From Pelotomaculum isophthalicicum JI (lineage in GTDB: Bacteria; Bacillota; Desulfotomaculia; Desulfotomaculales; Pelotomaculaceae), in the NCBI RefSeq assembly GCF_029478095.1, contig NZ_JAKOAV010000014.1, positions 1 to 64,000 on the forward strand: a DNA stretch of 64,000 nt, read 5' to 3'. Within the stretch, counting starts at the first letter, position 1; every line of letters begins with the position of its first letter. A program made the position numbers and the translations under genes. A model generated the notes under the pieces. It saw only the letters and a list, made by a program, of their open reading frames with translations, was not told where the DNA came from and ran no database searches. This document shows positions 2-31,787 of this stretch, piece after piece.

Positions 2-937
2 TGCGCCCTGAAATGCCCCAGAGACGTAAAACAGATCGAAGACATGAAAGCCCTGCGCAGGATGGCTTCGGGATATGGCGTTTTCCCAACGGCGGTCAAG
101 CCGGTCCGCGGCGTGAGCGCTGGCCTCACCGCGGAAGGCAACCCCTTCGGTGAAAGCCGTAAGAACAGGGCGGACTGGGCAAAAGGCCTCTCTGTAAAAA
201 CATTCGAAGAAGGAATGGAATATCTATATTTTCCCGGCTGTTACCTCTGCTATGACCCGAGATTAAAAAAGGTAGCGCAAGCCACAGCCAGCGTTCTCAA
301 CAAAGCGGGAGTAGATTTCGGAATCCTGGGCGAACAGGAGAACTGCTGTGGAGAAAGCATCCGTAAAACCGGCAATGAGGAATTGTTTAAAAAATTAGCG
401 AAGGAAAACATCAAAACCTTTATCGATAACGGGGTAAAGAAAATCCTGGTCAACTCCCCTCATTGCTACCACACCTTCAAGAACGAGTATGCTGAGTTCG
501 GCGTGAACTTTGAAGTGATTCATATTTCCCAGTTCTTATTCCAGTTGGTCAACGAGGGAAAACTGCAGATCAGCAAGGAATTTGGGAAGAAGATCACCTA
601 TCATGACCCGTGTTACCTCGGCCGGCATAACGGCGTATATGACGAGCCGCGAGAAGTCTTAAAGAAGATCCCCGGCGTAGATTATACTGAGATGGTCGAG
701 GTAAGGGAAGAAAGCCTTTGCTGCGGCATGGGCGGAGGCAGGATTTGGATGGAAACCCACGCTGCCGACCGGTTTGCCAACCTCAGATTAAACGAAGCCA
801 TCGGGGTTGGGGCTGAGGTGCTCGTTACCGCCTGCCCGTATTGCATCACTATGTTTGAGGATAGCAGGGCAGTCCTGAATTATGACGACGTCATTCAGAT
901 TAAAGACATCACGGAGATCCTCCAGGAGGTGATTTAG
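2..937 (+). CDS. HdrD-like CCG-domain Fe-S oxidoreductase (5' end outside window)
   Basis: The reading frame is open from the first bases, so the gene begins upstream. The first visible residues (CALKCP) are the tail of a 4Fe-4S ferredoxin motif. Two CCG-type cysteine domains follow: one with GCYLC and ENCCGE, the second with HDPCYLG, SLCCGMGGG and ACPYC. A ferredoxin domain followed by two CCG domains is the HdrD (fused HdrC-HdrB) plan also found in lactate/glycolate oxidase Fe-S subunits. CCG domains bind unusual Fe-S clusters that carry out disulfide or quinone chemistry. It is the first visible member of a run with fdhD, hdrA and mvhD, so I infer it fills the HdrBC position of that complex. 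The actual substrate cannot be told from the sequence. Confidence 0.8.
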   Translation, partial: CALKCPRDVKQIEDMKALRRMASGYGVFPTAVKPVRGVSAGLTAEGNPFGESRKNRADWAKGLSVKTFEEGMEYLYFPGCYLCYDPRLKKVAQATASVLNKAGVDFGILGEQENCCGESIRKTGNEELFKKLAKENIKTFIDNGVKKILVNSPHCYHTFKNEYAEFGVNFEVIHISQFLFQLVNEGKLQISKEFGKKITYHDPCYLGRHNGVYDEPREVLKKIPGVDYTEMVEVREESLCCGMGGGRIWMETHAADRFANLRLNEAIGVGAEVLVTACPYCITMFEDSRAVLNYDDVIQIKDITEILQEVI

Positions 938-955
938 ATTACCGGGAAGCTAAGC

Positions 956-1747
956 ATGCAGGAAGCGATTGGCGTGCCAAATCTAAAAGACGTTACGGCG
1001 GAAGTAGTCTGCAATCGCTTTTCGGACGGGGAATGGGTCAGGACCTCAGTTCACGTGCCTAGCGAGATTGAGTTCACTATATATGTGAATGAAAAAGCAC
1101 TGGTCACCATCCTGTGCACGGCGGCCAAGCTAAATTACCTCACCATCGGATATCTTTACGCGGAAGGAATCATCTCGAGCATCGACGACGTGGCGAGCAT
1201 GCGGGTGAGTGAGGAGGAGGCGCTGGCCGATGTGCGGCTGAACAATCCTGAGTACGAGTTGCCAACGTTGCGGAAGCTTGGATGCAGCGGCAGTTCGGTG
1301 TTCAAAACTCAGGGACAGAGGGTTGATTCGGATCTTGTCGCCGCACCCACGGATATCCTGTCACTGATGAAGCGGCTGCAAGAGCAGATGGAGCTGTATC
1401 CGCTTAGCGGCGGCGTGCATACTTCAGCTTTATCCGATACCAAGAACCTGCTGGTAGTGGCCGAGGATATAGGACGGCATAACACCTTGAACAAGATCCA
1501 GGGCGAATGCTTATTGAAAGGAATATCAACCAGAGACCGGCTGATGCTGATCACCGGCCGCATATCGTCCGAGATGCTGCTCAAGGCGGCGAAAATGCAG
1601 GCTCCGATTGTTGTTTCACGGCACGCGCCGACGAAGAACGCCATTTTGCTTGCCACTGACATGGGCATAGCCCTGGTCGGCCAAGCCCGTGGCGACCGTC
1701 TGGCGGTGTTTACCCACCCGGAGCGGCTTGGCTGTTCAACAAATTAA
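956..1747 (+). CDS. fdhD: FdhD, formate dehydrogenase sulfurtransferase
   Basis: FdhD passes sulfur from a cysteine desulfurase to the molybdenum/tungsten cofactor of formate dehydrogenase. The 263 residues carry family hallmarks: SGGVHTS, EDIGRHN and TGRISSEM. The usual paired Cys of the mobile loop is reduced to one (LGCSGSS), so a single Cys may carry the persulfide. An AGGAGGTGAT Shine-Dalgarno sits at the end of the upstream gene, about 20 bases before the ATG used here. A rarer start closer to it is possible. No formate dehydrogenase is in the window, but this gene next to hdrA and mvhD suggests formate is one electron partner of the Hdr module. Confidence 0.9.
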   Translation: MQEAIGVPNLKDVTAEVVCNRFSDGEWVRTSVHVPSEIEFTIYVNEKALVTILCTAAKLNYLTIGYLYAEGIISSIDDVASMRVSEEEALADVRLNNPEYELPTLRKLGCSGSSVFKTQGQRVDSDLVAAPTDILSLMKRLQEQMELYPLSGGVHTSALSDTKNLLVVAEDIGRHNTLNKIQGECLLKGISTRDRLMLITGRISSEMLLKAAKMQAPIVVSRHAPTKNAILLATDMGIALVGQARGDRLAVFTHPERLGCSTN

Positions 1748-1796: not shown

Positions 1797-4700
1797 TTGG
1801 AAGAAGAACTGTTGCTAAAAGAAAAAATTAAGCAACTTTGTAACAATCCTGGCGACAAAAATATTGGAGACGTAATGGTTGTTGGTGGAGGAATCAGCGG
1901 TATTCAAGCCTCCCTTGACCTTGCTACTGCCGGCTTTAAGGTTTACCTGGTCGAAAAAAAGCCGAGCATTGGCGGTCATATGGCGCAGCTTGACAAAACC
2001 TTTCCCACCAATGACTGCTCCATGTGAATACTCGCGCCAAAGCTGGTCGAGGTCGGCCGGCATCCAAATATTGAGGTCCTCACCTATACTGAAGTTGACA
2101 GCGTGGTAGGGGAAGCAGGAAACTTTAAGGTACAGGTAACGAAAAAACCCAAGTATATCGACGAGGACAAGTGCACGGGCTGCACTACATGCGTGGAGTA
2201 CTGCCCGGCAAAATATCCTGATGAATTCAACCAGGAAATATCGATGAACAAAGCGGTCCATATCTTCTTCCCGCAGGCGATTCCTCTTGTCGCGTATATC
2301 GACGAGACCTGTCTGTACCTTAAAGAGAATAAGTGCAAAATTTGCGAAGCGGTATGTGACAATAACGCCATAGATTTGAAACAAGAGCCGGAGACGAAAA
2401 TACTAAACGTAGGGGCGGTAATACTGGCCGCCGGTTTTGAGCCGTATGACCCCAAAGTCAAGGCTGAATATCACTACGGAGAGTTTCAGAACGTGATCAC
2501 CAGTATGGACTTTGAACGGCTGTTAAGCTCCACCGGCCCATACTCAGGTGAGATCCTGCGCACTTCAGACAAGAAGCATCCCCATAAGTTGGCCTGGATT
2601 CAGTGCGTGGGTTCCAGACAGGTTACTGAAGGCGGCAACAGCTATTGTTCGGCTGTATGTTGCACCTACGCCCAGAAGCATGTGATTTTGACCAAGGATC
2701 ACGACGCGGATGCGGAGTGTGTGATCTTCCATAACGATATTCGTTCCTATGGGAAGGATTTTGAGCGGTTCTACGACAGGACAAACAATCTTCCCGGGGT
2801 GCGGTTCATCAGAAGCTACACGTCAATAGTGAGAGAGGACCCGGTAACCAAGAATGTCACCGTACGGTATTCCACACCCGACGACGGTGTGAAAGAAGAA
2901 GAATTCGATATGGTGGTACTGTCCATCGGCTTGAATCCTCCTGTCGGCGCGAAGGAAATGGCTAAGAAATTCGGCGTTGAACTTACCGCTCACGATTACT
3001 GCAAGCTCAATCCCGTCAATCCAATGCAGACCAACAGGCCCGGGATCTTTGTAAGCGGAGGCTTCCAGGGTCCGATAGATATTCCCGAGTCGGTTTTCAG
3101 CGCCAGCGGGGCCGGCTCCCAGATTGGTGAACTGCTTAACTACAGGAGGGGCAATCTTTCTATAGAAAGGGTATACCCGGAGGAAAGGGATGTTTCCGCA
3201 GAGGAGCCGAGGGTCGGAGTTTTTGTGTGCCACTGCGGGGCTAATATCAGCAGGGTGGTAAATGTTCCTGATACGGTTGAATACTGCAAAACCTTGCCCT
3301 ATGTCGTCCACGCTCAGGAACAGATATTTTCATGCGCTACCAACTCCGCCAAAGAAATAACGGACGTGACCAAAGAAAAAGGACTCAACCGGGTGGTTGT
3401 CGCCGCCTGCTCCCTCAGGACTCTTGAGCCGCTGTTCCGTGATACCGTCCGGGAGGCGGGAATTAACCAATATTACTATGAAATGCCTAATATCCGGGAG
3501 CATAACTCCTGGGTCCACTCGAAAGAAAAGGAAATAGCCACTCAGAAGGCATGGGACTTAATCAGGATGGGAGTGGCAAGGGCTTGCAAGTTGGAGGCGC
3601 TGCAGGAGTTCGAACTGCCGGTAAACAAGACGGCGTTAGTGGTCGGCGGTGGCGTGGCCGGCATGACCTGCGCTCTTTCCATAGCCAACCAGGGACACGA
3701 GGTTTACCTCCTGGAGAAGGAATCCGTTCTTGGGGGAATAACGCGGAGAATTCATTCCACCCTGGAAGGGCTGGATGTTCAGGCCTATTTGGACGATCTG
3801 GTGCGCAAGGTTTACCAGCACCCCATGGTGCATGTGTATACTGACGCTGAAATTACTGACGCCACCGGTTATGTGGGCAATTTCGTAACCACGGTGAAGT
3901 CTAAAAGAGGGGTCACTGAGATTAAACACGGCGCGGCCGTTATCGCTATTGGCGCCGAAGTGTCCACACCCACCGAGTACCTTTATGGAGAAGATGACCG
4001 GGTCATGACCCACCTCGAGTTGGAGGAGCGGATCAACGAAGGCGACGAAAAAGTGGTTAACGCGGAAAGTCTCGTGATGATCCAGTGCGTTGGCTGCAGG
4101 AATGAAGACAGAAATTACTGCAGCAGGGTATGTTGCAGCGAGTCCGTAAAGAACGCGCTGAAGCTTAAAGAGATAAATCCGGAAATGGATATTTACATCC
4201 TCTTCAGAGACGTCAGAACATATGGATTAAAAGAGGATTATTACAGGGAAGCAGCGAGTAAAAATATTAGGTTCATCCGCTATGAACAGGATGATAAGCC
4301 CGAAGTGGAACCTGGCGAGTCGGATGAGGGCAAGCCGGTTCTGAAAGTTACCGTGACAGATTTTGTTTTAGGGAATAAGATTGAATTGGATGCTGATGTG
4401 CTTGCTTTGGCTGCCGCTATTGTTCCCTCGGAAGAAACCAATAAAATAGCCTCGCAATTCAAGGTGGTTTTAAGCCCGGACGGTTTCTTCAAGGAAGCGC
4501 ATGTCAAGTTAAGACCTGTTGAGTTTAACACGGACGGCGTTTATCTGTGTGGGCTGGCTCACTATCCCAAGTTCTTGCAGGAAACAATCAACCAGGCTTA
4601 TGGGGCCGCCGGCCGGGTGTTAACGCTTCTCTCGCATGATATAGTTATAGCTTCCGGTTCCGTCTGCCAGGTGGATGAGAAGAAGTGCATGGGGTGCGGG

Positions 4701-4895
4701 GCATGCGCCTCTGTCTGTACGTATGGCTCCCTGGCTGTTCAGGAGACGCGGCAGGGCAAGAAGGTTACAGTAAATCCCGTTCTATGCAAAGGATGCGGTC
4801 TCTGTAACTCGAAGTGTCCCACAGGGGCGATACAGTTGAAGCACTTTACCGATGATCAGATCACGGTCCAAATTGACGCGATGTTTGCGGAATAA
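1797..4895 (+). CDS. hdrA: HdrA, selenocysteine-containing FAD/Fe-S subunit
   Basis: HdrA is the flavin subunit that bifurcates electrons in heterodisulfide-reductase-type complexes. The 1032-residue product is about double the size of minimal HdrA. It has an FAD domain at about residue 25 (GGGISG), ferredoxin cysteines near 126, a second FAD domain near 614 (GGGVAGM) and two C-terminal 4Fe-4S motifs near 964 and 997. In-frame TGA at 2025-2027 (residue 77) follows NDCSM and precedes ILAPKLVEV, exactly where relatives have Cys. The protein is otherwise intact on both sides, so I read it as selenocysteine. The TTG start at 1797 is preceded by GAGGTGAT at good spacing. An annotation ignoring recoding would split this into a 76-residue fragment and a 930-residue protein. 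Confidence 0.88.
2025..2051 (+). promoter_or_regulatory. UGA-Sec codon and candidate SECIS hairpin of hdrA
   Basis: TGA at 2025-2027 is followed three bases later by a potential hairpin. Arm CTCGCGCC (2031-2038) pairs with GGTCGAG (2045-2051) across an AAAGCT loop, with one bulged C. Bacterial SECIS elements lie directly 3' of the UGA inside the coding region. The position fits, but this loop is closer to the UGA than in the classic examples. The assignment rests mainly on the protein context. Confidence 0.55.
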
Positions 4896-4927: not shown

Positions 4928-5773
4928 ATGAGTGCAAAATTTAAACCGAAGGTAATAGGCTTCGTATGCCACTGGTGAGCATACGGCGCTGCTGACTTGG
5001 CTGGAGTTTCCAGACTACAATATTCGACTGAAATGAGACTTGTTCACGTCATGTGTTCCGGTAGGGTCGACATGGCGCATGTACTCCGAGCTTTCTCAAA
5101 AGGAATGGACGGGGTGTTTATCGGCGGCTGCCATTTTAATGATTGTAATTATAGTGCCGGCGGGAATTTCCATGCGCTGAACATGACGCTTCTGACCAAA
5201 AAAATAATGGAACACATCGGGCTGAACCCCGAGAGATTAAGAATGAGAGTTATGTCCGGCAGTGAAGGAAACCTTTATGCCGAGCATGTCAATGACTTTA
5301 ACAAGAAAGTTAAAGAAATAGGGCCGTTTGGCAAAAATGAAGGAATAGACAAAGAAGAATTGATTTCCAGGATAGAAAAAGTTATAAAGCTGGTTCCGTA
5401 CATTAAAGTAATGATGAATAAGAAGCTGGCGGTACGTCAAGTGAACCCGGAAGACCCGGAAGAATGTGATAAGTATTTCACAATTGACGAGATAGACAAG
5501 TTACTTAATGAAAGAATCTCATACTATATTGAACCGGAGAAGTGCCAGGCCTGTACGACTTGCGCCAGGAGATGCCCAATGGGTGCTGTTATCAGCGCCA
5601 AGGGTCAGGTCCATATAATCGATCAGGAGAAATGTATCAGATGCGGCGCCTGCATTGCAGGCTGCCCGCCCCGCTTCAGCGCGATCAGGAAGATTGAGGC
5701 CGGCGAGCCGGTTCCGCCTCCCCTTCCTGAGGGAGAAAGGGCTGTGGTCAGAAAGGGTAAGGAAGTTAGTTAA
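4928..5773 (+). CDS. mvhD: MvhD-like electron-transfer subunit with selenocysteine and fused ferredoxin domain
   Basis: MvhD carries a 2Fe-2S cluster and links HdrA to a hydrogenase or formate dehydrogenase. The reading frame from ATG 4928 (GGGGGTGAGAGCGA upstream) gives a 281-residue protein with TGA at residue 17, in the context FVCHW-stop-AYGAADLAG. Relatives have Cys here (CxxC of the N-terminal motif). Downstream the MvhD domain continues through MRLVHVMCSGRVD and GCHFNDCNY. The C-terminus adds two 4Fe-4S motifs, CQACTTCARRC near residue 206 and CIRCGACIAGC near 236, a fusion absent from minimal MvhD. It follows hdrA by 32 bases and ends before a strong terminator. A conventional caller would start it falsely at 4997. 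Confidence 0.88.
4976..5013 (+). promoter_or_regulatory. UGA-Sec codon and candidate SECIS hairpin of mvhD
   Basis: TGA at 4976-4978 is followed 22 bases later by a perfect hairpin: CTGGA (5001-5005), loop GTT, TCCAG (5009-5013). A short stem with G and U in a small apical loop about 20 bases past the UGA matches the usual bacterial SECIS layout. Confidence 0.6.
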
Positions 5774-5807: not shown

Positions 5808-5834
5808 AAATGCCGGAGTAAATTCCGGCATTTT
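5808..5834 (+). terminator. Intrinsic terminator after mvhD
   Basis: Perfect 10-bp stem AAATGCCGGA / TCCGGCATTT with a 6-base loop, running into T-rich sequence. It ends the hdrA-mvhD transcript. Confidence 0.85.
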
Positions 5835-6185: not shown

Positions 6186-6692
6186 ATGGGAGAAGCAGTC
6201 ACTAAGTGTCGGTGTGATTTGCAAGCTGAACTGGAAAAAGTGATTGCCCAGCACGAAGGAAGAAAGGACGATTTAATCGAAGTATTGTATTGGGTTCAGG
6301 AGAATTACGGTTATGTTCCGAAAGACGTACAACTTGTAATTTCCGAGAAGATGAACGTACCTTTAAGTGCTATTAATGGGGTAATTACTTTTTACCATCT
6401 CTTCTCATTAAAGCCAAAAGGCGAGTATGAGATTTCACTCTGTAAGGGGACGGCCTGTTATGTGCGGGGAGCGCCGCAAGTTTTGGAACGGTTTGAAAAA
6501 GAATTGGGAATTAAGCCGCATGACTCTACGGACGACAATATGTTCTCTCTTGAAGTGGTCAGGTGCCTGGGAGCTTGTGGTTTGGCTCCGGTTCTTACGA
6601 TCAATAAAGCGCCGCGCCCCCGGATGAAACCCGATCTTGTCCCGGGAATCATTAATGAGTTAAGAAATAAGAGTAAGGACTCAGAAGAATAA
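6186..6692 (+). CDS. hndA: HndA/NuoE-like 2Fe-2S subunit, operon 1
   Basis: NuoE-type subunit (168 residues) of an NAD-linked [FeFe]-hydrogenase. It has the four thioredoxin-fold 2Fe-2S cysteines in CKGTACYVRG and VRCLGACGLAP, and the helical N-terminal region (EVLYWVQENYGYVP) typical of the family. AAGGAGGGG sits just upstream of the ATG. It is the first gene of an operon also encoding HndB, HndC and HndD. In HndABCD/HydABC complexes this subunit relays electrons next to the flavin subunit. A paralogue lies at 27509. Confidence 0.92.
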   Translation: MGEAVTKCRCDLQAELEKVIAQHEGRKDDLIEVLYWVQENYGYVPKDVQLVISEKMNVPLSAINGVITFYHLFSLKPKGEYEISLCKGTACYVRGAPQVLERFEKELGIKPHDSTDDNMFSLEVVRCLGACGLAPVLTINKAPRPRMKPDLVPGIINELRNKSKDSEE

Positions 6693-6763
6693 TCAAGCCG
6701 GAAGCATAATGCCGACAGCCAAAAGAATGATTTTGGAAAGAGGAGCGAAGCTAAAGCAATAAA

Positions 6764-7315
6764 ATGCGTGAACTTTCTCATCACCTTTTAGATATCATCG
6801 AAAACTCGCTGGCTGCAGGCGCGTCCACCGTCAGGATAACGGTAATTGAAGACTCTGCCGGAGATATCTTGAGTTTTGAGGTTGGAGATAACGGTGGGGG
6901 AATGAATGAAGAAGAAATTGAACAAATTTTTGATCCATTTGTCACAAGCCGCCGTTTGAGAAGGGTTGGCTTGGGCATACCTTTGCTTCAACAGGCGGCG
7001 CGCGCTTGTGGGGGTGATCTGATTATCCAATCGGAGAAAGGGAAAGGGACGACAGTAAAGGCAACCTTTCAGCGTTCGCATATTGACCGGATGCCCTTGG
7101 GTGATGTAGCCGCTACATTAGTGGCTGCGGTGGCTGCCAATCCGGATGTGAATTTACTGTATAATCATCTGGTAGACGGACGTCAGTTTGTTTTTGACAC
7201 CAGTTGGTTAATTGGTAAATTTAAAGAACTGCCCCTGAATGATATTGAAGTTTTGAGCTGGATAAAGGAATTTTGCCGGGATGGTATTAAAAAATTATAC
7301 CGGGGTGAGAAATGA
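6764..7315 (+). CDS. GHKL ATPase-domain protein of the hydrogenase operon
   Basis: A 183-residue histidine-kinase-like ATPase fold without a phosphoacceptor domain. The N box is ENSLAAGAS, the G1 box DNGGGM, and the ATP-lid region GLGIPLLQQ. Genes like this are known inside bacterial HndABCD/HydABC operons, but the role is not established; a regulatory or assembly function is possible. Its stop overlaps the start of hndB by 4 bases, implying translational coupling. Operon 2 lacks it. Confidence 0.8.
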   Translation: MRELSHHLLDIIENSLAAGASTVRITVIEDSAGDILSFEVGDNGGGMNEEEIEQIFDPFVTSRRLRRVGLGIPLLQQAARACGGDLIIQSEKGKGTTVKATFQRSHIDRMPLGDVAATLVAAVAANPDVNLLYNHLVDGRQFVFDTSWLIGKFKELPLNDIEVLSWIKEFCRDGIKKLYRGEK

Positions 7316-7689
7316 TGAAACCATTAAAATCAATTCAGGATTTGGAGGCGTTAAAAGAAGCCGCGCTGGATAGAATCAAAGAGCGGCAAGTAGCCGGCAA
7401 GACTACAATAGTGGTGGGAATGGGAACCTGTGGAATAACCGCCGGAGCGAGAGAAGTAATGATGGCAATTATTGATGAAGTAAGTAAGAGAAATATTTCT
7501 GACGTAATTGTCAGCCAGGCGGGTTGCGTCGGGATGTGCCAGCATGAGCCCATGCTGGAAGTAATCAAGCCGGGTATGCCCAATGTCATGTACGGTCATA
7601 TTGACGAGGAAAAAGCCCGGCGGCTCGTGCTTGAACATGTTGTCAACGGCCATGTGATTGAGGAATGGGCGATAGTGCAACGAGATTAG
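7312..7689 (+). CDS. hndB: HndB-like 2Fe-2S ferredoxin, operon 1
   Basis: A 125-residue thioredoxin-like ferredoxin with GTCGITAGAREV, QAGCVGMCQHEP and a C-terminal YGHIDEEKA region. It matches HndB, the small 2Fe-2S subunit encoded between hndA and hndC. It resembles the N-terminal domain of NuoF-type HndC and probably exchanges electrons with it. The start overlaps the preceding ATPase gene. Confidence 0.88.
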   Translation: MMKPLKSIQDLEALKEAALDRIKERQVAGKTTIVVGMGTCGITAGAREVMMAIIDEVSKRNISDVIVSQAGCVGMCQHEPMLEVIKPGMPNVMYGHIDEEKARRLVLEHVVNGHVIEEWAIVQRD

Positions 7690-7716
7690 TTGAAATTGTG
7701 AGAGGAGGGTCCGGTT

Positions 7717-10700
7717 ATGCAGTTTTATCGGTCACATGTTTTGGTTTGTTCAGGATCGGCATGTGTTCTGTCGGGTTGCCAAACCGTTAAAGAAGCTCTT
7801 GCCGAAGGAATAAAAAAGCAACAGCTTGATAATGAAATTCAACTTATTGAAACCGGATGCATGGGTCTTTGCGACTTGGGTCCGCGCTTAATAGTTTATC
7901 CTGAAGGAGTAGTATACTGCCGGGTTACCGCTGAAGACGCCGAAGAAATCGTTAATGAACACTTATTAAAAGGGCGTATAGTGGAGCGTCTGGTCTACCG
8001 GGATCCGGAAACCCAGAAACCTATTCCTTTTATGAAGGACTTTCCGTTCTTGTCGAAGCAAACCAAAATTGCCCTGCGCAACGCTGGTTTAATTAATCCT
8101 GAAGATATCGAAGAATATATCGGGTGCGAAGGATACAGCGCGCTGGCCAAGGCTTTATCCATGTCTCCCGGGGAAGTAATCGCCGAACTGAAAAAATCCG
8201 GCCTACGCGGCCGTGGCGGCGCGGGGTTCCCGACCGGCTTAAAGTGGGAGTTCACCGCCAAAGCCAACGCGACACAAAAATATGTGGTATGTAACGGCGA
8301 TGAAGGCGACCCGGGCGCTTTTATGGACAGGTCGGTTCTGGAAGGCGACCCGCATTCCGTTATTGAGGCCATGGCTATCGCCGGTTATACGGTGGGGGCC
8401 AGCAAGGGTTATATATACGTTAGAGCTGAATACCCCCTGGCTGTGGAAAGACTGAGAATTGCCATCAACCAGGCTCGTGAGTACGGCTTGCTGGGAGAAG
8501 ATATATTAGGAAAAGGGTTTAATTTTGATCTCAACGTCCGGGTCGGCGCCGGCGCCTTTGTTTGCGGCGAAGAGACGGCCCTGCTGGCATCTATTGAAGG
8601 ACGCCGCGGCGAACCCCGGCCGAGACCTCCCTTCCCGGCCACCGAAGGTTTGTGGGGCAAGCCCACTTTGCTAAATAACGTGGAAACCTACGCCAGCATC
8701 GCGCCGATTATTCTTAATGGCGGGGACTGGTACGCTTCCAGGGGAACAGAGAAAAGCAGGGGCACCAAGGTGTTCGCCCTTACCGGCAAGGTTAATAATA
8801 CCGGCCTGATCGAAGTCCCGATGGGTATACCCTTAGGAGAAATCATTTACGATATCGGCGGCGGCATCATGGGCGGCAAGAAGTTTAAAGCGGCCCAGAC
8901 AGGCGGTCCCTCCGGCGGCTGTATTCCGGTAGACCACCTTAACGTCGGTGTTGATTATGAGTCGCTGGCGGAACTGGGAGCGATAGTGGGTTCCGGCGGA
9001 CTGATTGTCATGGACGAGGATACCTGTATGGTTGACCTGGCCAAGTTCTTCACCGAGTTCTGCCAGGAAGAGTCTTGTGGTAAATGCGCTCCCTGCCGCA
9101 TCGGCACCAAACGGATGCTGGAGATACTGGAACGGATCACCCGCGGTGAAGGGGAAGAGGGAGACATCGAAAGACTGATCGAGCTGTGTGAATACATTAA
9201 AAGCACGGCGCTGTGCGGTTTGGGACAAACTGCCCCCAACCCCGTGCTGAGTACAATAAGGTACTTCAGGCATGAGTACGAAGCGCATATCCGGGATAAG
9301 CGTTGTCCGGCTTCCGTCTGCGCGTCCCTATTTAATTCACCGTGCCAAAATACCTGTCCGGCTGGAGTGGATATACCGATTTACCTCGATCATATCCGGA
9401 ACGGGCGTTTCTATGACGCTTACATGGAAGTGAAACGGGAAAATCCGTTCCCCGCTGTTTGCGGCCGCGTGTGCCACCACCCGTGCGAAGGCAAGTGCAA
9501 CCGCGCGAAGTTGGATGAGCCCCTGGCTGTCAGGGCATTGAAGCGTTATGCGGCCGACTGGGTGTATGAACAGAACAAAGGATTCCCGGTTGAGCCTCCC
9601 GGAGTTGCGACGGGCAAGCAAGTGGCAATAATCGGCGGCGGCCCGGCCGGCCTGACCGCGGCCTATTACCTGGCCAAAGTCGGTCACAGGGTTACTGTAT
9701 TTGAATCGCTGCCGTTTGCCGGCGGTATGCTGAAAGTGGGTATTCCTGATTACCGCCTGCCGGCTAAGACCCTGGCGGCTGAAATAAAAGCAATCGAAGG
9801 AATGGGTGTGACTATTAAAACCAACACCCGTTTTGGCAAAGACGTTACCTTTGCCGATTTAGAGAAGCAAGGCTTCAACGCGGTGTTTATCGCCGTCGGC
9901 GCCCACGCGGATCAGAAACTGGGCGTTCCGGGCGAGGAACTCAATGGTGTTATATCAGGCATCAACTACCTGCGTGACGTTAAACTGGGACAGGCCGCCG
10001 ATGTGGAAGGCAAGACCGTGCTGGTGGTAGGCGGCGGCAACGTGGCCATAGACAGCGCCCGCTCCGCTGTGAGAAACGGGGCTAAAGAAGTTCAGGTCGT
10101 TTACCGGCGCCGCAAAGAAGACATGCCGGCCTTTGAAGATGAAATTATGGAAGCAGAGCACGAAGGAGTGAAGTTTATCTTCATGACTGCCCCCATAAGC
10201 GTGCAGGGAGCCGGCGGTCAGGTAACCGGGCTGGAATGCCAGCAATCAGTGCCGGGTGACTTCGACAAGAGCGGCCGCAGGCGGCCGGTGCCGGTTGAAG
10301 ACTCCAACTTCGTCATTCCGGCGGACGTGGTAATTGCGGCGATTGGGCAAAATGTCCAACTGGACGGAATCACAGACGCAGGCGTGCAGACAGTTCGCGG
10401 GCTGGTTGCGGTGGATCCTGACAGCATGGCCACTAATATACCGTATATATTCGCCGGCGGTGACTGCGCTTCCGGGCCGGATACGGCAATCGGCGCGATT
10501 GCCCACGGTAAGAAAGCGGCGGCGGCTATTGACAAGTACCTCGGTGGTTCCGGCGTGGTTGTAGAGCCGCGTGACATCAAACGGGAAGTTTCCGGTGAGG
10601 TTATTGAGGACAAGAGGGCGAGAGAAATAGCAACATGCCTGCCGGTTGCCGATCGCAAGTCATTTGCCGAAGTGGAAAATGGTTTCACTAAAGGGCAGGC

Positions 10701-10743
10701 TATGGCCGAGGCCATGCGCTGCCTGCGTTGTGATGTGAAGTAG
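7717..10743 (+). CDS. hndC: HndC fused to a GltD/NfnB-like NADPH oxidoreductase
   Basis: A 1008-residue fusion. Residues 1-110 form a thioredoxin-like 2Fe-2S domain ([19 protein letters not shown]). About 140-520 is the NuoF core: FMN/NAD site ([23 protein letters not shown]), SLBB region, and 4Fe-4S ligands [12 protein letters not shown] with ALCGLGQ. At CPASVC, where HydB relatives carry a ferredoxin tail, the chain continues as a GltD-like module. That module has [11 protein letters not shown] and [13 protein letters not shown] cysteines, an FAD motif at about 636 (GGGPAG) and a pyridine-nucleotide motif at about 768 (GGGNVAID) with [11 protein letters not shown], typical of NADPH binding. 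It therefore has one NAD site and one NADP site. The architecture resembles the Sporomusa-type Nfn (Stn) flavin subunit. GAGGAGGG precedes the ATG. Confidence 0.9.
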
Positions 10744-10760
10744 AAGGAGGGGTGAGATAG

Positions 10761-12494
10761 ATGCCAATGGTTACTTTAACAATTGACGGAAAAGAAGTGC
10801 AGGTGGAACAGGGTACCACTGTTCTTGAGGCTGCCAAAAAAGTTAATATAAATATTCCTACCTTATGCTATTTAAAAGACATTAACGTTATCGGGGCCTG
10901 CCGGATCTGTGTGGTTGAAGTCAAAGGCGCCCGCACGCTGCAGGCGGCTTGTGTGACCCCGGCGACCGAGAATATGGTTGTGCTGACCAATACCGCGGCG
11001 GTGCGCAATTCACGCCGGATGACCCTGGAACTGATTCTGTCCAACCACCCGTTCCAATGCCCGACCTGTGTACGCAACCAGAATTGCGAGTTGCAGTCCC
11101 TGGCGGAAGCGTTCGGAATCCGGGAGGTTCATTATCAAGGCGCCAACCCCGAGCACGTGGTGGACGACTCCAGCGTATCCCTGGTGCGCGACCCTGAAAA
11201 GTGCATCCTGTGCCGGCGCTGCGTCTCAGTATGTGAAAAAGTGCAGACGGTATGCGCGATCGGCCCGCAGGGGCGCGGTTTCGACACCGTTATCGCGCCG
11301 GGCGTGGACACAGTTTTAGCCCAATCAAATTGTGTAAACTGCAGCCAGTGTGTGCTGGTTTGCCCGACAGGAGCTCTATGTGAGCGGGATCAGACTGAAG
11401 AAGTCTGGGCCGCCCTGGCCGATCCCAAAAAACATGTCGTGGTCCAGACCGCCCCGGCGGTGCGTGTCGCCATCGGTGAAATGTTCGGCATGAAGCCGGG
11501 CAGCGTCGCGACCGGACAAATGGTTGCCGCGATCAGGAGGCTCGGTTTCGACAAAGTCTTCGACACCGACTTTACCGCCGACCTGACCATCATGGAAGAA
11601 GGCAGCGAGTTGCTCGAAAGGATCAAGACCGGTGGCACCCTGCCGCTGATTACCTCGTGCAGCCCCGGCTGGATTAAGTTCATCGAGCACTTCTACCCGA
11701 CCCTGCTGCCGCATGTGTCCACATGCAAATCACCGCAGCAGATGTTCGGCGCCCTGGCCAAAACCTTCTACCCTGAAAAAGCGGGGATAGACCCGGCCGA
11801 CGTCTTTTCAGTGTCGATCATGCCCTGCACCGCCAAGAAGTTCGAGGCACAGCGCCCGGAAATGAATGCGAGCGGCTATCAGGACGTGGACGTTGTGCTG
11901 ACCACCAGGGAACTCGGCCGCATGTTCAAGCAGGCGGGTATAGATTTCAACGAACTACCCGAGGAAAATTACGATGACCCGCTGGGCATCTCGACCGGCG
12001 CGGCGGTAATCTTCGGCGCGACCGGCGGCGTGATGGAAGCCGCGCTGCGCACAGTCTATGAAATAGTTACCGGGGAAACCCTGGCGTCGGTAGATTTTGT
12101 CGACGTGCGCGGTTTGGTAGGAGTCAAGGAAGCCTCCGTCAAAGTTGGCGACCTGGACGTAAAAGTAGCCGTGGCGCACGGGCTGGGCAACGCCAGGAAG
12201 CTGCTGGACGCCCTGCAGGCCGGCGAAGCGAACTACCACTTCATCGAGATCATGTGCTGCCCGGGCGGCTGCATCGGCGGCGGCGGCCAGCCAATCCCGA
12301 CCAACTATGAAATCAGGCAACAGCGGATTGACGGCATATACACCGCCGACGAAGCCATGACCTTGCGGAAATCCCACGAGAACCCCGCGGTCCAGTATTT
12401 GTACAAGGAATTTTTAGAGAAGCCGCTGGGGCATAAGTCTCATGAACTGCTGCACACCAAATACACCCCGCGCGGGCAGTATAATCAGTTATAA
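10761..12494 (+). CDS. hndD: [FeFe]-hydrogenase catalytic subunit HndD/HydA, copy 1
   Basis: Group A [FeFe]-hydrogenase, 577 residues. It starts with a 2Fe-2S domain (PTLCYL, GACRIC), then the His-Cys 4Fe-4S site (HPFQCPTCVRNQNCELQ) and two 4Fe-4S motifs (CILCRRCVSVC, CVNCSQCVLVC). The H-cluster loops are L1 TSCSPGW, L2 MPCTAKKFE and L3 EIMCCPGGCIGGGGQP. L1 has Ser where the classic loop has a second Cys (TSCCPGW), the proton-relay residue of standard hydrogenases. It is the last gene of operon 1 and has its own AGAAGGAGGGG ribosome site. Copy 2 at 30054 differs at 18 of 577 residues. Confidence 0.95.
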   Translation: MPMVTLTIDGKEVQVEQGTTVLEAAKKVNINIPTLCYLKDINVIGACRICVVEVKGARTLQAACVTPATENMVVLTNTAAVRNSRRMTLELILSNHPFQCPTCVRNQNCELQSLAEAFGIREVHYQGANPEHVVDDSSVSLVRDPEKCILCRRCVSVCEKVQTVCAIGPQGRGFDTVIAPGVDTVLAQSNCVNCSQCVLVCPTGALCERDQTEEVWAALADPKKHVVVQTAPAVRVAIGEMFGMKPGSVATGQMVAAIRRLGFDKVFDTDFTADLTIMEEGSELLERIKTGGTLPLITSCSPGWIKFIEHFYPTLLPHVSTCKSPQQMFGALAKTFYPEKAGIDPADVFSVSIMPCTAKKFEAQRPEMNASGYQDVDVVLTTRELGRMFKQAGIDFNELPEENYDDPLGISTGAAVIFGATGGVMEAALRTVYEIVTGETLASVDFVDVRGLVGVKEASVKVGDLDVKVAVAHGLGNARKLLDALQAGEANYHFIEIMCCPGGCIGGGGQPIPTNYEIRQQRIDGIYTADEAMTLRKSHENPAVQYLYKEFLEKPLGHKSHELLHTKYTPRGQYNQL

Positions 12495-27401: not shown

Positions 27402-27508
27402 AAAGGTAACTATTTAGGGTTTTCGCATGGTGAAATGTTTGAATATTCAATTAATTTGGGCTGGTTATCCTCAATATGATTAACAATAAAGGGCAAGGAG
27501 GAAAACAA

Positions 27509-28030
27509 ATGGAAGCGGCAGTCACCGAGTGCCGGTGTGATCTGGAAACTGAACTGGAAAGAATGATTGCCAGTCATGAAGGAAAGAAGGACGATTTAAT
27601 CGAGGTATTATATTGGGTACAGGACAAATACGGCTATGTGCCAAAAGATGTGCAGCTAATAATTGCTGATAAAATGAATGTGCCCTTAAGCACTATTAAT
27701 GGAGTTATTACGTTTTACCATCTATTTTCATCAAAGCCAAAAGGCAAGTATGAGATTTCCCTTTGTAACGGCACCGCCTGTTATTTGCGGGGAGCGCCGC
27801 GAGTATTGGAGCGGTTTGAAAAAGAGTTGGGGATTAAACCGCATGATAATACCGGCGACAATATGTTTTCCCTTAATTTAATCAGGTGTTTGGGCGCTTG
27901 CGCCGTTGCTCCGAATATTACCGTCAACTCAGAGCCACGCGCCAGGATGGCGCCTGATCTTGTCCCGGAAATCATTAATGAGCTCAAAGCTAAAAATTAT
28001 ACCGGGGTGATCGATGATGAAACAGATTAA
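27509..28030 (+). CDS. hndA: HndA/NuoE-like 2Fe-2S subunit, operon 2
   Basis: 173-residue paralogue of the gene at 6186, with CNGTACYLRG and IRCLGACAVAP cluster ligands. ATG 27509 chosen because AAGGAGGAAAAC lies directly upstream; the frame is open 11 codons further. It overlaps hndB copy 2 by 17 bases. The ATPase-domain gene present at this point in operon 1 is absent. Confidence 0.9.
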   Translation: MEAAVTECRCDLETELERMIASHEGKKDDLIEVLYWVQDKYGYVPKDVQLIIADKMNVPLSTINGVITFYHLFSSKPKGKYEISLCNGTACYLRGAPRVLERFEKELGIKPHDNTGDNMFSLNLIRCLGACAVAPNITVNSEPRARMAPDLVPEIINELKAKNYTGVIDDETD

Positions 28031-28391
28031 GTCAGTTGATGAACTGATAAAGTTAAAAGAAGCCGCGCTGAATAAAATCAAAGAGCGGCAGATTGGTAAT
28101 AAAACAACAATTGTGGTAAACATGGGAACCTGCGGGATAGCCGCCGGGGCGCGGGAAGTGATGATGGCAATTATTGATGAAATAGAAAAAAGAAATATTT
28201 CTAATGTAATTATCACCCAGGCAGGCTGCGCCGGGTTGTGCGAGCATGAGCCCATGCTCGCAGTTATCAGGCCTGATAAGTCCCAGGTTATTTACGGTCA
28301 TTTAGACAAGGAAAAAGCCCGGCGGATCGTAATAGAGCATGTTATTCACGACAAGGTTGTTGAGGAATGCGCGCTGGCGCAGCAAGCCTAA
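28014..28391 (+). CDS. hndB: HndB-like 2Fe-2S ferredoxin, operon 2
   Basis: 125 residues, same length as copy 1, with GTCGIAAGAREV and QAGCAGLCEHEP. Expected partner of HndC copy 2. The tail CALAQQA differs from copy 1. Confidence 0.88.
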   Translation: MMKQIKSVDELIKLKEAALNKIKERQIGNKTTIVVNMGTCGIAAGAREVMMAIIDEIEKRNISNVIITQAGCAGLCEHEPMLAVIRPDKSQVIYGHLDKEKARRIVIEHVIHDKVVEECALAQQA

Positions 28392-28418
28392 TTGAAGTAG
28401 CGAGGGGAGGATTTGAAT

Positions 28419-30053
28419 ATGCATTATTACCGGGCACATGTTTTGGTTTGCGCGGGGTCGACATGTGTTACATCAGGATGCCACGCCGTTAAAGAAGCTA
28501 TTTTAGAAGGAATCAAAAGGCATCAACTCGAAGAAGAAATTAAAGTTGTAGAAACCGGCTGCATGGGTTTTTGTGAACTGGGCCCGCTTGTCGTAGTATA
28601 TCCCGAAGGAGTAATGTATTGCCGGGTTAAGGCTGAAGACGCGGCAGTCATTGTGAACGAGCACCTGCTTAAAGGGCGGATCGTGAAGCAGTTGCTATAC
28701 CAGGATCCCAACACCAGAAAACCTGTTCCTTTGATGAAAGATCTCCATTTCTTGTCCAAACAGACCAAGATTGCCATGCGTAACGCAGGACTTATTAATC
28801 CCAAAGATATTGAGGAATATATCGCCGGTGAAGGCTATTTCGCGTTGGCCAAGGTTTTGTCAAGCATGTCGCCGGAGGAAGTAATCCTCGAGATAAAAAA
28901 ATCCGGCCTGCGCGGCCGGGGAGGCGCCGGTTTCCCAACCGGATTAAAGTGGGAATTTACCGCCAAAGCCCGGGGAACGCAAAAATATGTGGTATGCAAC
29001 GGAGACGAAGGAGTCCCGGGTGTTTTTATGGACAGGTCAATCTTGGAAGGTGACCCGCACTCCGTCATTGAGGCGATGGCCATCGCCGGCTATGCGCTCG
29101 GAGCTGATCAAGGCTATATCTACGTCCGGGCGGAGTACCCCCTGGCGGTGGAGAAACTGCGGCATGCCATTAATCAGGCAAGTGAGTACGGGTTATTGGG
29201 AGAGAATATTTTAGGCTCAGGTTTTAATTTTAACGTAAATATCCGGGTTGGCGCCGGCGCCTTTGTCTGCGGGGAAGAAACCGCCCTGCTGGCTTCCATA
29301 GAAGGCCGCCGCGGCGAACCCAGGCCGCGGCCTCCTTTCCCGGCCAATGAAGGGCTATGGGGTAAACCGACATTAATTAATAACGTGGAAACATTCTCCA
29401 GTATCCCGCCGATTATCTTAAAAGGCGGCCAGTGGTATGCTTCCATGGGAACAGAAAAGAGCAAAGGCACAAAAGTATTTGCCCTGACCGGGAAAATAAA
29501 CAACACCGGCCTGATCGAAGTTCCGATGGGCATACCTTTGAAAGAGATCATTTTTGACATTGGCGGCGGAATAGTTAATAACAAAAAATTAAAAGCAGTG
29601 CAAACGGGTGGCCCCACAGGCGGCTTTATTCCGGCCGAGCACATTAATGTCAGTATGGATTATGAATCGCTGGACGAATTAGGAACACAAATTGGCTCCG
29701 GCAGCCTGACTGTATTAGATGAAGATACCTGTGTGGTCGACCTGGTCAAATTCTTTGTCCAATTTTGCCACGAGGAATCTTGCGGCAAGTGCGCTCCCTG
29801 CCGCATCGGGACCAAGAGGATGTTGGAAATACTCGAGCGGATTACCCGCGGCGAAGGGAAAGAGGAAGATATCGAAGCGCTTGAAAAACTGTGCGACTAT
29901 ATTAAAAACACGGCGTTATGCGGTTTGGGACAAGCCGCTCCCAACCCCGTGCTGAGCATGTTGCGCTACTTTAGGCCTGAGTTTGAAGCGCATGTCAGGG
30001 ATAAGCATTGTCCGGCTTCAGTATGTGCGCTGGCAGAAGGAGGGGTGAGATAG
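28419..30053 (+). CDS. hndC: HndC/NuoF-like flavin subunit, operon 2, truncated at C-terminus
   Basis: 544 residues: N-terminal 2Fe-2S domain (CAGSTCVTSGC, ETGCMGFC), NuoF core ([13 protein letters not shown]) and 4Fe-4S ligands [12 protein letters not shown] with ALCGLGQ. Two oddities. The nucleotide-site motif reads NGDEGVPGVF where copy 1 has [10 protein letters not shown], replacing an acidic residue by Val. The chain also stops just after CPASVC with AEGGVR, codons that are really the ribosome site of the next gene. It lacks both a ferredoxin tail and the GltD module. Start ATG 28419 is 8 bases after GGGGAGG. Confidence 0.88.
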   Translation: MHYYRAHVLVCAGSTCVTSGCHAVKEAILEGIKRHQLEEEIKVVETGCMGFCELGPLVVVYPEGVMYCRVKAEDAAVIVNEHLLKGRIVKQLLYQDPNTRKPVPLMKDLHFLSKQTKIAMRNAGLINPKDIEEYIAGEGYFALAKVLSSMSPEEVILEIKKSGLRGRGGAGFPTGLKWEFTAKARGTQKYVVCNGDEGVPGVFMDRSILEGDPHSVIEAMAIAGYALGADQGYIYVRAEYPLAVEKLRHAINQASEYGLLGENILGSGFNFNVNIRVGAGAFVCGEETALLASIEGRRGEPRPRPPFPANEGLWGKPTLINNVETFSSIPPIILKGGQWYASMGTEKSKGTKVFALTGKINNTGLIEVPMGIPLKEIIFDIGGGIVNNKKLKAVQTGGPTGGFIPAEHINVSMDYESLDELGTQIGSGSLTVLDEDTCVVDLVKFFVQFCHEESCGKCAPCRIGTKRMLEILERITRGEGKEEDIEALEKLCDYIKNTALCGLGQAAPNPVLSMLRYFRPEFEAHVRDKHCPASVCALAEGGVR

Positions 30054-31787
30054 ATGCCAATGGTTACTTTAACAATTGACGGAAAAGAAGTGCAGGTGGA
30101 ACAGGGTACCACTGTTCTCGAGGCTGCCAAAAAAGTTAATATAAATATTCCTACCTTATGCTATTTAAAAGACATTAACGTTATCGGGGCCTGCCGGATC
30201 TGTGTGGTTGAAGTCAAAGGCGCCCGCACGCTGCAGGCGGCTTGTGTGACCCCGGCGACCGAGAATATGGTTGTGCTGACCAATACCGCGGCGGTGCGCA
30301 ATTCACGCCGGATGACGCTGGAACTGATTCTGTCCAACCACCCGTTCCAATGTCCGACCTGTGTACGCAACCAGAATTGCGAGTTGCAGTCCCTGGCGGA
30401 AGCGTTCGGAATCCGGGAAGTTCATTATCAAGGCGCCAACCCCGAGCACGTGGTGGACGACTCCAGCGTGTCCCTGGTGCGCGACCCCGAAAAGTGCATC
30501 CTGTGCCGTCGCTGCGTCTCAGTATGTGAAAAGGTGCAGACCGTATGCGCAATCGGCCCGCAGGGGCGCGGTTTCGACACCGTTATCGCGCCGGGCGTGG
30601 ACATGGTTTTAGCCGAATCCAATTGTGTCAACTGCGGCCAGTGTGTGCTGGTTTGCCCGACGGGGGCTCTATGCGAGCGGGATCAGACAGAACAAGTCTG
30701 GGCCGCCCTGGCCGATCCCAAAAAGCATGTCGTGGTCCAGACCGCCCCGGCGGTGCGTGTCGCCATCGGTGAAATGTTCGGCATGAAGCCGGGCAGCGTC
30801 GCTACCGGACAAATGGTTGCCGCAATCAGGAAGCTCGGTTTTGATAAAGTATTCGACACCGACTTCACCGCCGACCTGACCATCATGGAAGAGGGCAGCG
30901 AGTTGATCGAAAGGATCGGTACCGGCGGAGTTCTGCCGTTAATCACTTCTTGCAGTCCAGGCTGGGTTAAGTTCATCGAGCACTTCTACCCGGCACTGCT
31001 GCCGCATGTGTCCACCTGCAAATCGCCGCAGCAGATGTTCGGCGCCCTGGCTAAAACCTTCTACGCCGAAAAAGCGGGCGTGGACCCGGCCGACGTCTTT
31101 TCAGTGTCGATCATGCCCTGCACCGCCAAGAAGTTCGAGGCGCAGCGTCCCGAAATGAACTCAAGCGGCTATCAGGACGTGGATGTAGTGCTGACCACCA
31201 GGGAACTATGCCGCATGTTCAAGCAGGCGGGCATAAATTTCAACGAACTGCCCGAAGAAAATTATGATGACCCGCTGGGCATCTCGACCGGCGCGGCGGT
31301 AATCTTCGGCGCGACCGGCGGCGTGATGGAAGCCGCGCTTCGCACAGTCTATGAAATAGTTACCGGGGAAACCCTGGCGTCGGTAGATTTTGTCGACGTG
31401 CGCGGTTTGGTAGGAGTCAAGGAAGCCTCCGTCAAAGTTGGCGACCTGGACGTAAAAGTAGCCGTGGCGCACGGGCTGGGCAACGCCAGGAAGCTGCTGG
31501 ACGCCCTGCAGGCCGGCGAAGCCAATTACCACTTCATCGAGATCATGTGCTGCCCGGGCGGCTGCATCGGCGGCGGCGGCCAGCCAATCCCGACTAACTA
31601 TGAAATCAGGCAACAGCGGATTGACGGCATATACACCGCCGACGAGGCGATGACCTTGCGGAAGTCCCACGAGAACCCCGCGATTCAGCAGTTGTACAAA
31701 GAATTTTTGGAGAAGCCGCTGGGGCATAAGTCTCATGAATTGCTGCACACTAAATACACTCCGCGCGGGCAGTTTAATCAGTTATAA
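30054..31787 (+). CDS. hndD: [FeFe]-hydrogenase catalytic subunit HndD/HydA, copy 2
   Basis: 577 residues, 18 substitutions relative to copy 1. The same cluster motifs and the same L1 loop TSCSPGW are present, with L3 EIMCCPGGCIGG unchanged. The first 184 and residues about 400-550 are identical, with differences concentrated between 185 and 395, a pattern of gene conversion. Identity extends into the ribosome site upstream (from 30035) and 7 bases past the stop. Confidence 0.95.
   Translation: MPMVTLTIDGKEVQVEQGTTVLEAAKKVNINIPTLCYLKDINVIGACRICVVEVKGARTLQAACVTPATENMVVLTNTAAVRNSRRMTLELILSNHPFQCPTCVRNQNCELQSLAEAFGIREVHYQGANPEHVVDDSSVSLVRDPEKCILCRRCVSVCEKVQTVCAIGPQGRGFDTVIAPGVDMVLAESNCVNCGQCVLVCPTGALCERDQTEQVWAALADPKKHVVVQTAPAVRVAIGEMFGMKPGSVATGQMVAAIRKLGFDKVFDTDFTADLTIMEEGSELIERIGTGGVLPLITSCSPGWVKFIEHFYPALLPHVSTCKSPQQMFGALAKTFYAEKAGVDPADVFSVSIMPCTAKKFEAQRPEMNSSGYQDVDVVLTTRELCRMFKQAGINFNELPEENYDDPLGISTGAAVIFGATGGVMEAALRTVYEIVTGETLASVDFVDVRGLVGVKEASVKVGDLDVKVAVAHGLGNARKLLDALQAGEANYHFIEIMCCPGGCIGGGGQPIPTNYEIRQQRIDGIYTADEAMTLRKSHENPAIQQLYKEFLEKPLGHKSHELLHTKYTPRGQFNQL

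Follow-up and report, generated by a model that had tools for sequence, protein, structure and literature searches.

Probable selenocysteine codons in the adjacent hdrA and mvhD genes of a putative BamB-F-type gene cluster in Pelotomaculum isophthalicicum JI

The analysed stretch of DNA from P. isophthalicicum JI (contig NZ_JAKOAV010000014.1, 64,000 nucleotides, hereafter the window) carries two adjacent genes, hdrA and mvhD, each with an in-frame UGA codon. The conservation of both codons and of the SECIS hairpins that follow them, together with a complete selenocysteine (Sec) machinery in the genome, argues strongly that both are read as Sec. The surrounding operon is most likely a BamB-F-type cluster, resembling that of class II benzoyl-CoA reductase (BCR), and not a hydrogenase-linked Mvh-Hdr unit. 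The Sec-containing MvhD/BamF and HdrA/BamE, together with BamD, BamC and a BamB-like protein, probably constitute a tungsten- and selenium-dependent complex of the class II BCR type that operates without BamGHI.

The mvhD gene (frhD- or bamF-like; 4928..5773, + strand) encodes a protein of 281 amino acids and was assigned from its homologues and from the Pfam model FlpD (PF02662), which covers residues 9-132 with 151 bits (cut-off 22.3). The product starts with MSAKFKPKVIGFVCHWUAYGAADLAG, where U stands for the only in-frame TGA (4976..4978, + strand) and forms residue 17 in the motif CHWU. This codon is also present in a second P. isophthalicicum assembly, with a protein identity of 100%, in a congener (91% identity) and in three members of the family (73-75% identity). 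Residue 17 was Cys or TGA in 80 loci retrieved from named genomes. In a set of 156 distinct FlpD domains, TGA was found 86 times, Cys 70 times and any other codon never. Replacement of the second Cys of a CxxC motif, as proposed before, is therefore what all intact close homologues examined indicate, each of which has Cys or TGA at this position. A looser FlpD scan yielded two additional cases with Ser, both in divergent copies. In two wide scans, an order-wide one for FlpD (113 genomes) and a phylum-wide one with the N-terminal part of HdrA (149 genomes), in-frame stops within the matches listed were exclusively TGA and never TAA or TAG.

Five Cys positions of MvhD are conserved (14, 17, 43, 68 and 73). 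Since the predicted [2Fe-2S] cluster of MvhD would need four of them, Sec17 is a probable ligand of this cluster. The idea that one Sec replaces two Cys residues (CNWCC versus CHWUA) was rejected, as most Cys-type MvhDs outside the group lack a Cys at position 18.

A bacterial SECIS hairpin with the sequence CUGGA-GUU-UCCAG is located at 5001..5013 (+ strand) and starts 22 nt 3' of the UGA. It satisfies the published constraints of a loop of 3-9 nt, a G within the first two loop positions and a spacing of 16-37 nt (PMC13188914). At one mismatch or less it is the sole match to its own sequence in the window, with 0.10 expected. An Rfam search of the window gave no match. The hairpin had been called 'good', which goes too far as regards its folding energy, as this is no better than chance compared to shuffled sequences (z = -0.06). 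It is the conservation of codons and pairs, not the energy, that indicates a real element. In 71 distinct Sec-encoding mvhD genes from many phyla, the five stem pairs are kept in 71, 71, 71, 71 and 65 genes, and two double compensations from U-A to G-C were observed. Codon choice within the hairpin hardly varies (Ser TCC 71/71, Ala GCT 62/64, Gly GGA 62/71, Arg AGA 62/71), whereas all synonyms are in use 5' of it; the synonymous entropy is about 1.5 bits in neighbouring codons and 0.0-0.7 bits inside the hairpin. At the hairpin codons, Cys-encoding homologues show a higher synonymous entropy than the Sec genes.

The UGA of hdrA is as well supported as that of mvhD. This gene (bamE-like; 1797..4895, + strand; NF040770, 937 bits) encodes a predicted selenoprotein of 1032 amino acids composed of two fused HdrA halves. 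Its UGA (2025..2027, + strand) specifies residue 77, which corresponds to Cys197 of Methanothermococcus HdrA (5odc) in an ungapped alignment in which query residue 27 matches chain residue 147. Cys197 is the ligand that the other HdrA protomer provides in trans to the N-terminal Fe-S cluster (PMC9012536). The solved HdrA chain 9sfi_A has an X at the equivalent position, which is consistent with Sec. The first HdrA half contains the Cys197 site without the N-terminal domain and the second half the N-terminal domain without the Cys197 site, a complementary arrangement that has been described for fused HdrAs (PMC9012536). The SECIS hairpin of hdrA, GCUGGUCG-AGGU-CGGCCGGC, is located at 2042..2061 (+ strand). 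Its seven inner pairs are kept in 50 of 50 Sec genes, in which the codons are frozen and compensatory double changes from C-G to A-U occur.

The genome harbours selA, selB, selC and selD. The tRNA-Sec scores 66.7 bits and has a UCA anticodon, SelA scores 603 bits and SelD 405 bits, with selD itself containing one TGA. Two selB genes lie above the family cut-off (contigs C1 and C54), one of which adjoins selA; their G-domain motifs differ (GHVNHGKT and VPGNERF in the C54 protein, GHVDHGKT and VPGHERF in the C1 protein). Its four intact FlpD genes represent all combinations of Sec or Cys with a ferredoxin-type (Fer4) or HTH tail: Sec with Fer4 in the window, Sec with HTH on C2, Cys with HTH on C54 and Cys with Fer4 on C67. 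In addition, two decayed Sec-mvhD copies that retain the UGA and the SECIS region (L017/L022, 1116-1358, - strand; L023/L230, about 580-900, + strand) directly adjoin intact Cys-type genes, and this position suggests that Sec copies were displaced in place by Cys copies.

These decayed copies, and the ordinary folding energy of the mvhD hairpin, would fit a reading in which the UGA really terminates translation, stems from faulty sequencing or assembly or marks a decayed gene, with MvhD made only from an internal start. This reading is highly improbable, given that the identical UGA occurs in the second assembly and across several phyla, that the frame is intact 3' of the codon, and that frozen SECIS codons coexist with a complete Sec machinery. 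Next to Sec-HdrA, MvhD is thus very probably another selenoprotein, as an earlier note on this DNA had stated with exact coordinates. Neither of the two observations named in that note as refuting, a non-Cys residue in homologues at the UGA position and missing Sec machinery, was made for the intact homologues and the genome examined.

The genes upstream of hdrA point to the identity of the operon. The window begins with the 3' part of a gene for an HdrD-like protein (2..937, + strand; CCG domain, 138 bits), a BamD-like fusion of HdrC and HdrB. Its 5' part is cut off by the contig edge, and full-length copies, one of them in the same-species assembly L227, have an HdrC-like N-terminus, so that an HdrB/HdrC-type partner is present. 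It is followed by fdhD (956..1747, + strand; PF02634, 212 bits; TIGR00129 above cut-off), encoding a formate dehydrogenase accessory sulfurtransferase that functions in cofactor sulfuration. The window does not include bamB and bamC, which were seen in L227, where the order is bamB-bamC-bamD-fdhD-hdrA(U)-mvhD(U). Because BamB, BamC, BamD and FdhD are thus encoded directly upstream, HdrA and MvhD are regarded as BamE- and BamF-like. Upstream of the pair in the congener (L228), genes for an AOR-family protein, a small Fe-S protein and an HdrD-like protein are found as in L227. The order bamB-bamC-bamD-bamE-bamF is common to both assemblies, with fdhD inserted between bamD and bamE in the species. 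The AOR-family proteins of the species and of the congener align end to end with BamB of Geobacter metallireducens (4z3w) and score 1072 and 987 bits, respectively, compared to at most 212 bits for other AORs in the congener's search. The gene bamD is present in 44 of 44 operons that have Sec in both HdrA and MvhD (U/U) and enough upstream sequence. A second, canonical set is located on contig C2 of the same genome, in the order bamB-C-D-E(Cys)-F(Sec, HTH tail)-G-H-I.

The BamB-like protein of the species differs from the Geobacter protein at some positions, e.g. by a Cys at His255 of 4z3w, and its substrate is therefore possibly not benzoyl-CoA. An fdhD gene between bamD and bamE was also observed in many loci of Bacillota, with no formate dehydrogenase gene adjacent; FdhD may sulfurate the tungsten cofactor of BamB.

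An ordinary Hdr-Mvh bifurcation module was weighed against the BamB-F-type assignment. In such a module, Sec-HdrA, Sec-MvhD and the HdrD-like protein would use electrons from the [FeFe] hydrogenase HydCBA (6186-12494) or from a formate dehydrogenase for the reduction of ferredoxin and of a disulfide, independently of BamB. The hydCBA genes lie about 0.4 kb downstream of mvhD in the window and in L227, fdhD is part of the operon, and HdrABC-MvhD modules elsewhere pair with hydrogenase or formate dehydrogenase (PMC6019823). However, the congener has moeA genes in place of hyd, which weakens the neighbouring hydrogenase as a partner. Between mvhD and hydCBA, a hairpin (TGCCGGAGTAAATTCCGGCA, 5811..5830, + strand) followed by TTTTATG was read from the sequence as a possible end of the transcription unit, accompanied by a sigma-70-like site matching at 11 of 12 positions; the hairpin is not among the results of the terminator scan, which requires five T. 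No MvhA or MvhG subunit of a [NiFe] hydrogenase was recognised when the ORFs of the window were read. As bamB, bamC and bamD precede the pair both in the species and in its congener, and all close U/U operons with sufficient sequence contain bamD, a BamB-independent module appears unlikely, and the assignment to a BamB-F-type cluster is preferred. As a separate observation, the window contains two [FeFe] hydrogenase sets of the electron-bifurcating type with NuoE-, NuoF- and HydA-like proteins (6186-12494 and 27476-31787). Their HydA proteins are near-identical. In the first set, the NuoF-like protein (1008 amino acids) carries a second flavoprotein domain as a fusion.

The C-terminal tail of MvhD distinguishes operon classes. 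Residues 199-247 (5522..5668, + strand) form a ferredoxin-type 2[4Fe-4S] domain according to Pfam Fer4 models, and dicluster ferredoxin models cover residues of about 195-247. The domain had been noted previously as an addition to a minimal MvhD; it is real, but instead of being an idiosyncratic extra it marks the class of operons without bamGHI. The tail shares about 52-60% identity with the C-terminus of the NuoF-like BamH encoded in untailed sister operons. Where enough downstream sequence was available, bamG follows a tailed MvhD in 0 of 42 loci and an untailed MvhD in 30 of 30 loci. Tail and adjacent bamGHI are hence mutually exclusive without exception, in 72 loci that are related operons and therefore not independent. 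In line with this, no bamGHI module adjoins the window operon, while the sister operon on C2 has one. Most simply, BamF gained a BamH-type ferredoxin domain upon loss of the NADH module, or the change went in the opposite direction, from which it would follow that the tail is an entry or exit point of electrons for another partner. The exclusion thereby points to an unexamined route by which electrons could enter the tungsten-dependent reduction of rings in anaerobic bacteria.

Based on these features, the following mechanism is proposed. UGA-17 would be decoded as Sec via the SelB-read hairpin directly 3' of it. The entry point of electrons would be the 2[4Fe-4S] tail of MvhD, which would stand in for BamGHI. 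The electrons would then be divided, and a low-potential branch would supply the tungsten site of BamB. One branch would run via the N-terminal Fe-S cluster of HdrA, with Sec77 as the trans ligand, to BamD, BamC and BamB. A selenolate ligand is expected to shift the potentials of the clusters. Neighbouring genes need not encode subunits of a single complex; assembly of HdrA/MvhD with BamB-D is part of the proposed model, as are Fe-S ligation by Sec, the direction of electron flow and benzoyl-CoA as substrate. Two selenols along one electron path, as suggested in the earlier note, are plausible by homology, although free selenols are unlikely if both Sec residues ligate Fe-S clusters.

Sec in both subunits was found in 49 of 64 close operons, a sample biased by one search pattern that required Cys at residue 17 and by the ranking of loci by similarity to the Sec query. 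The combination was reported as early as 2006 for FrhD/MvhD and HdrA of archaea, Syntrophobacter, Syntrophus, Syntrophomonas, Carboxydothermus, Desulfotomaculum reducens and Moorella (PMC1794560). Sec in both MvhD and HdrA was described in 2009 for Desulfobacterium autotrophicum (PMC2702500), and Sec in HdrA, MvhD and BamE for Desulfococcus multivorans (PMC5109826). The pairing is therefore known and not rare, and the window operon is a further example.

The survey of Sec co-occurrence was extended to 124 hdrA-mvhD pairs, of which 86 have Sec in both proteins. Next to a Sec-HdrA, MvhD has Sec at residue 17 in 52 pairs and at residue 68 in 34 pairs, and an all-Cys MvhD does not occur; next to a Cys-HdrA, the corresponding numbers are 11, 1 and 26. 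HdrA-Sec was thus found solely beside a Sec-MvhD (86/86), and MvhD has Sec at 17 or 68 but never at both. A narrower rule drawn from the 64 close operons, HdrA-Sec only with MvhD-Sec17, was abandoned, since the phylum-wide sample contains 34 operons with Sec-HdrA and Cys at residue 17 of MvhD. The rule was restored in its wider form when all Cys columns were checked, because those 34 MvhDs have Sec at residue 68. In a tree of concatenated proteins from which the trait columns had been removed, the HdrA state changes twice, each time beside a Sec-MvhD; with just these two independent origins the dependence is not significant and is considered suggestive. The small MvhDs adjacent to type I HdrA(U) (L138-L172) have Sec at residue 68 (GGUxxxDC) and not at 17. 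Genes with Sec68 possess their own conserved, near-perfect hairpin of 7-8 bp (GCCACTA..TAGTGGC) soon 3' of the UGA. In L026, a MAG labelled Bathyarchaeota, the operon carries bacterial in-gene SECIS elements, and the archaeal label is probably a binning error.

In L227, the full cluster has the order hdrA(C)-mvhD(C)-bamB-bamC-bamD-fdhD-hdrA(U)-mvhD(U). Of this bamB, the genome of the window contains only the 5' end, encoding 47 residues, at the end of contig C67 just 3' of the Cys-HdrA/Cys-MvhD pair. Because the Cys pair is located directly upstream of bamB, either pair could be the partner of BamB. As Cys and Sec pairs flank bamB-bamC-bamD-fdhD, the Cys pair might serve as a low-selenium backup of the Sec pair, for which Vhc and Vhu of Methanococcus have been named as a model (PMC2702500). 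Such a role would be compatible with the proposed complex, but it is rather unlikely, because the Cys pair of the congener, like that of most other genomes, is located apart from the bam genes. In several genomes (also in L231 and L236), all-Cys HdrA/MvhD is encoded beside selB, selD or genes resembling 2-hydroxyacyl-CoA dehydratase (HgdB-like), which suggests a separate role. Examples are the orders selB-hdrA(C)-mvhD(C)-selD-HgdB-like in L044 and HgdB-like-activase-hdrA(C)-mvhD(C)-selD in L053. In such a setting, selenium assimilation might plausibly be served by a redox module that contains no Sec.

Taken together, the dependence of HdrA-Sec on MvhD-Sec, the two alternative sites in MvhD and the presence of Sec and Cys pairs in one genome make it testable why anaerobes put selenium into electron-transfer subunits that are not catalytic. 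As a tentative and somewhat doubtful generalisation, Sec might be a native Fe-S ligand at two sites of a single flavin-based bifurcation module, the Cys197 site of HdrA and either residue 17 or residue 68 of MvhD, with HdrA acquiring Sec only after MvhD and the tailed MvhD representing a class II variant. If true, selenium would tune a coupled pair of clusters, the N-terminal cluster of HdrA and the [2Fe-2S] cluster of MvhD. The BamH-like ferredoxin domain on MvhD would then replace BamGHI, and a donor other than NADH would drive ring reduction. In the literature searched, in which coverage of Bam systems was incomplete, we found no description of the exclusion between tail and bamGHI, of a choice between two Sec positions in bacterial MvhD or of a dependence of HdrA-Sec on MvhD-Sec.

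Compared to known systems, the HdrABC-MvhAGD (5odc) and FdhAB-MvhD-HdrABC (7bkb) complexes are similar in that the [2Fe-2S] cluster of MvhD passes electrons to the FAD of HdrA, as would be expected for the window proteins. In contrast to the window proteins, they have Cys at all Sec sites, no tail and other catalytic partners. The operons with Sec-FrhD (VhuD) and HdrA of Methanococcales, Methanopyrus and Deltaproteobacteria (hdrA-frhD-frhG-frhA) share Sec in both proteins and adjacent genes with the window (PMC1794560). A further similarity to this group is the X at the equivalent HdrA position of the solved chain 9sfi_A. The window operon differs from them in that no [NiFe] hydrogenase genes were seen, in its bacterial SECIS elements inside the coding region and in its double-length HdrA fusion. 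Type I HdrA of Bacillota (about 670 amino acids) with a small MvhD resembles the window pair in its HdrA-Sec at the Cys197 site and in a single Sec per MvhD, whereas that Sec is located at residue 68 of an untailed MvhD with its own SECIS element. The class II BCR system BamBCDEFGHI of G. metallireducens and D. multivorans has the order bamB-C-D-E-F and an FlpD-type BamF in common with the window cluster. A UGA in the FlpD subunit is shared with the Geobacter-type loci (L099-L101), and Sec in BamE with D. multivorans (PMC5109826). The BamF of Geobacter, listed as a hydrogenase-delta-type protein, ends in an HTH motif (PMC1924859), while MvhD of the window ends in a ferredoxin domain. Compared to BamBCDEFGHI, the window cluster is further distinguished by Sec in both subunits, by the inserted fdhD gene and by the absence of an adjacent bamGHI.
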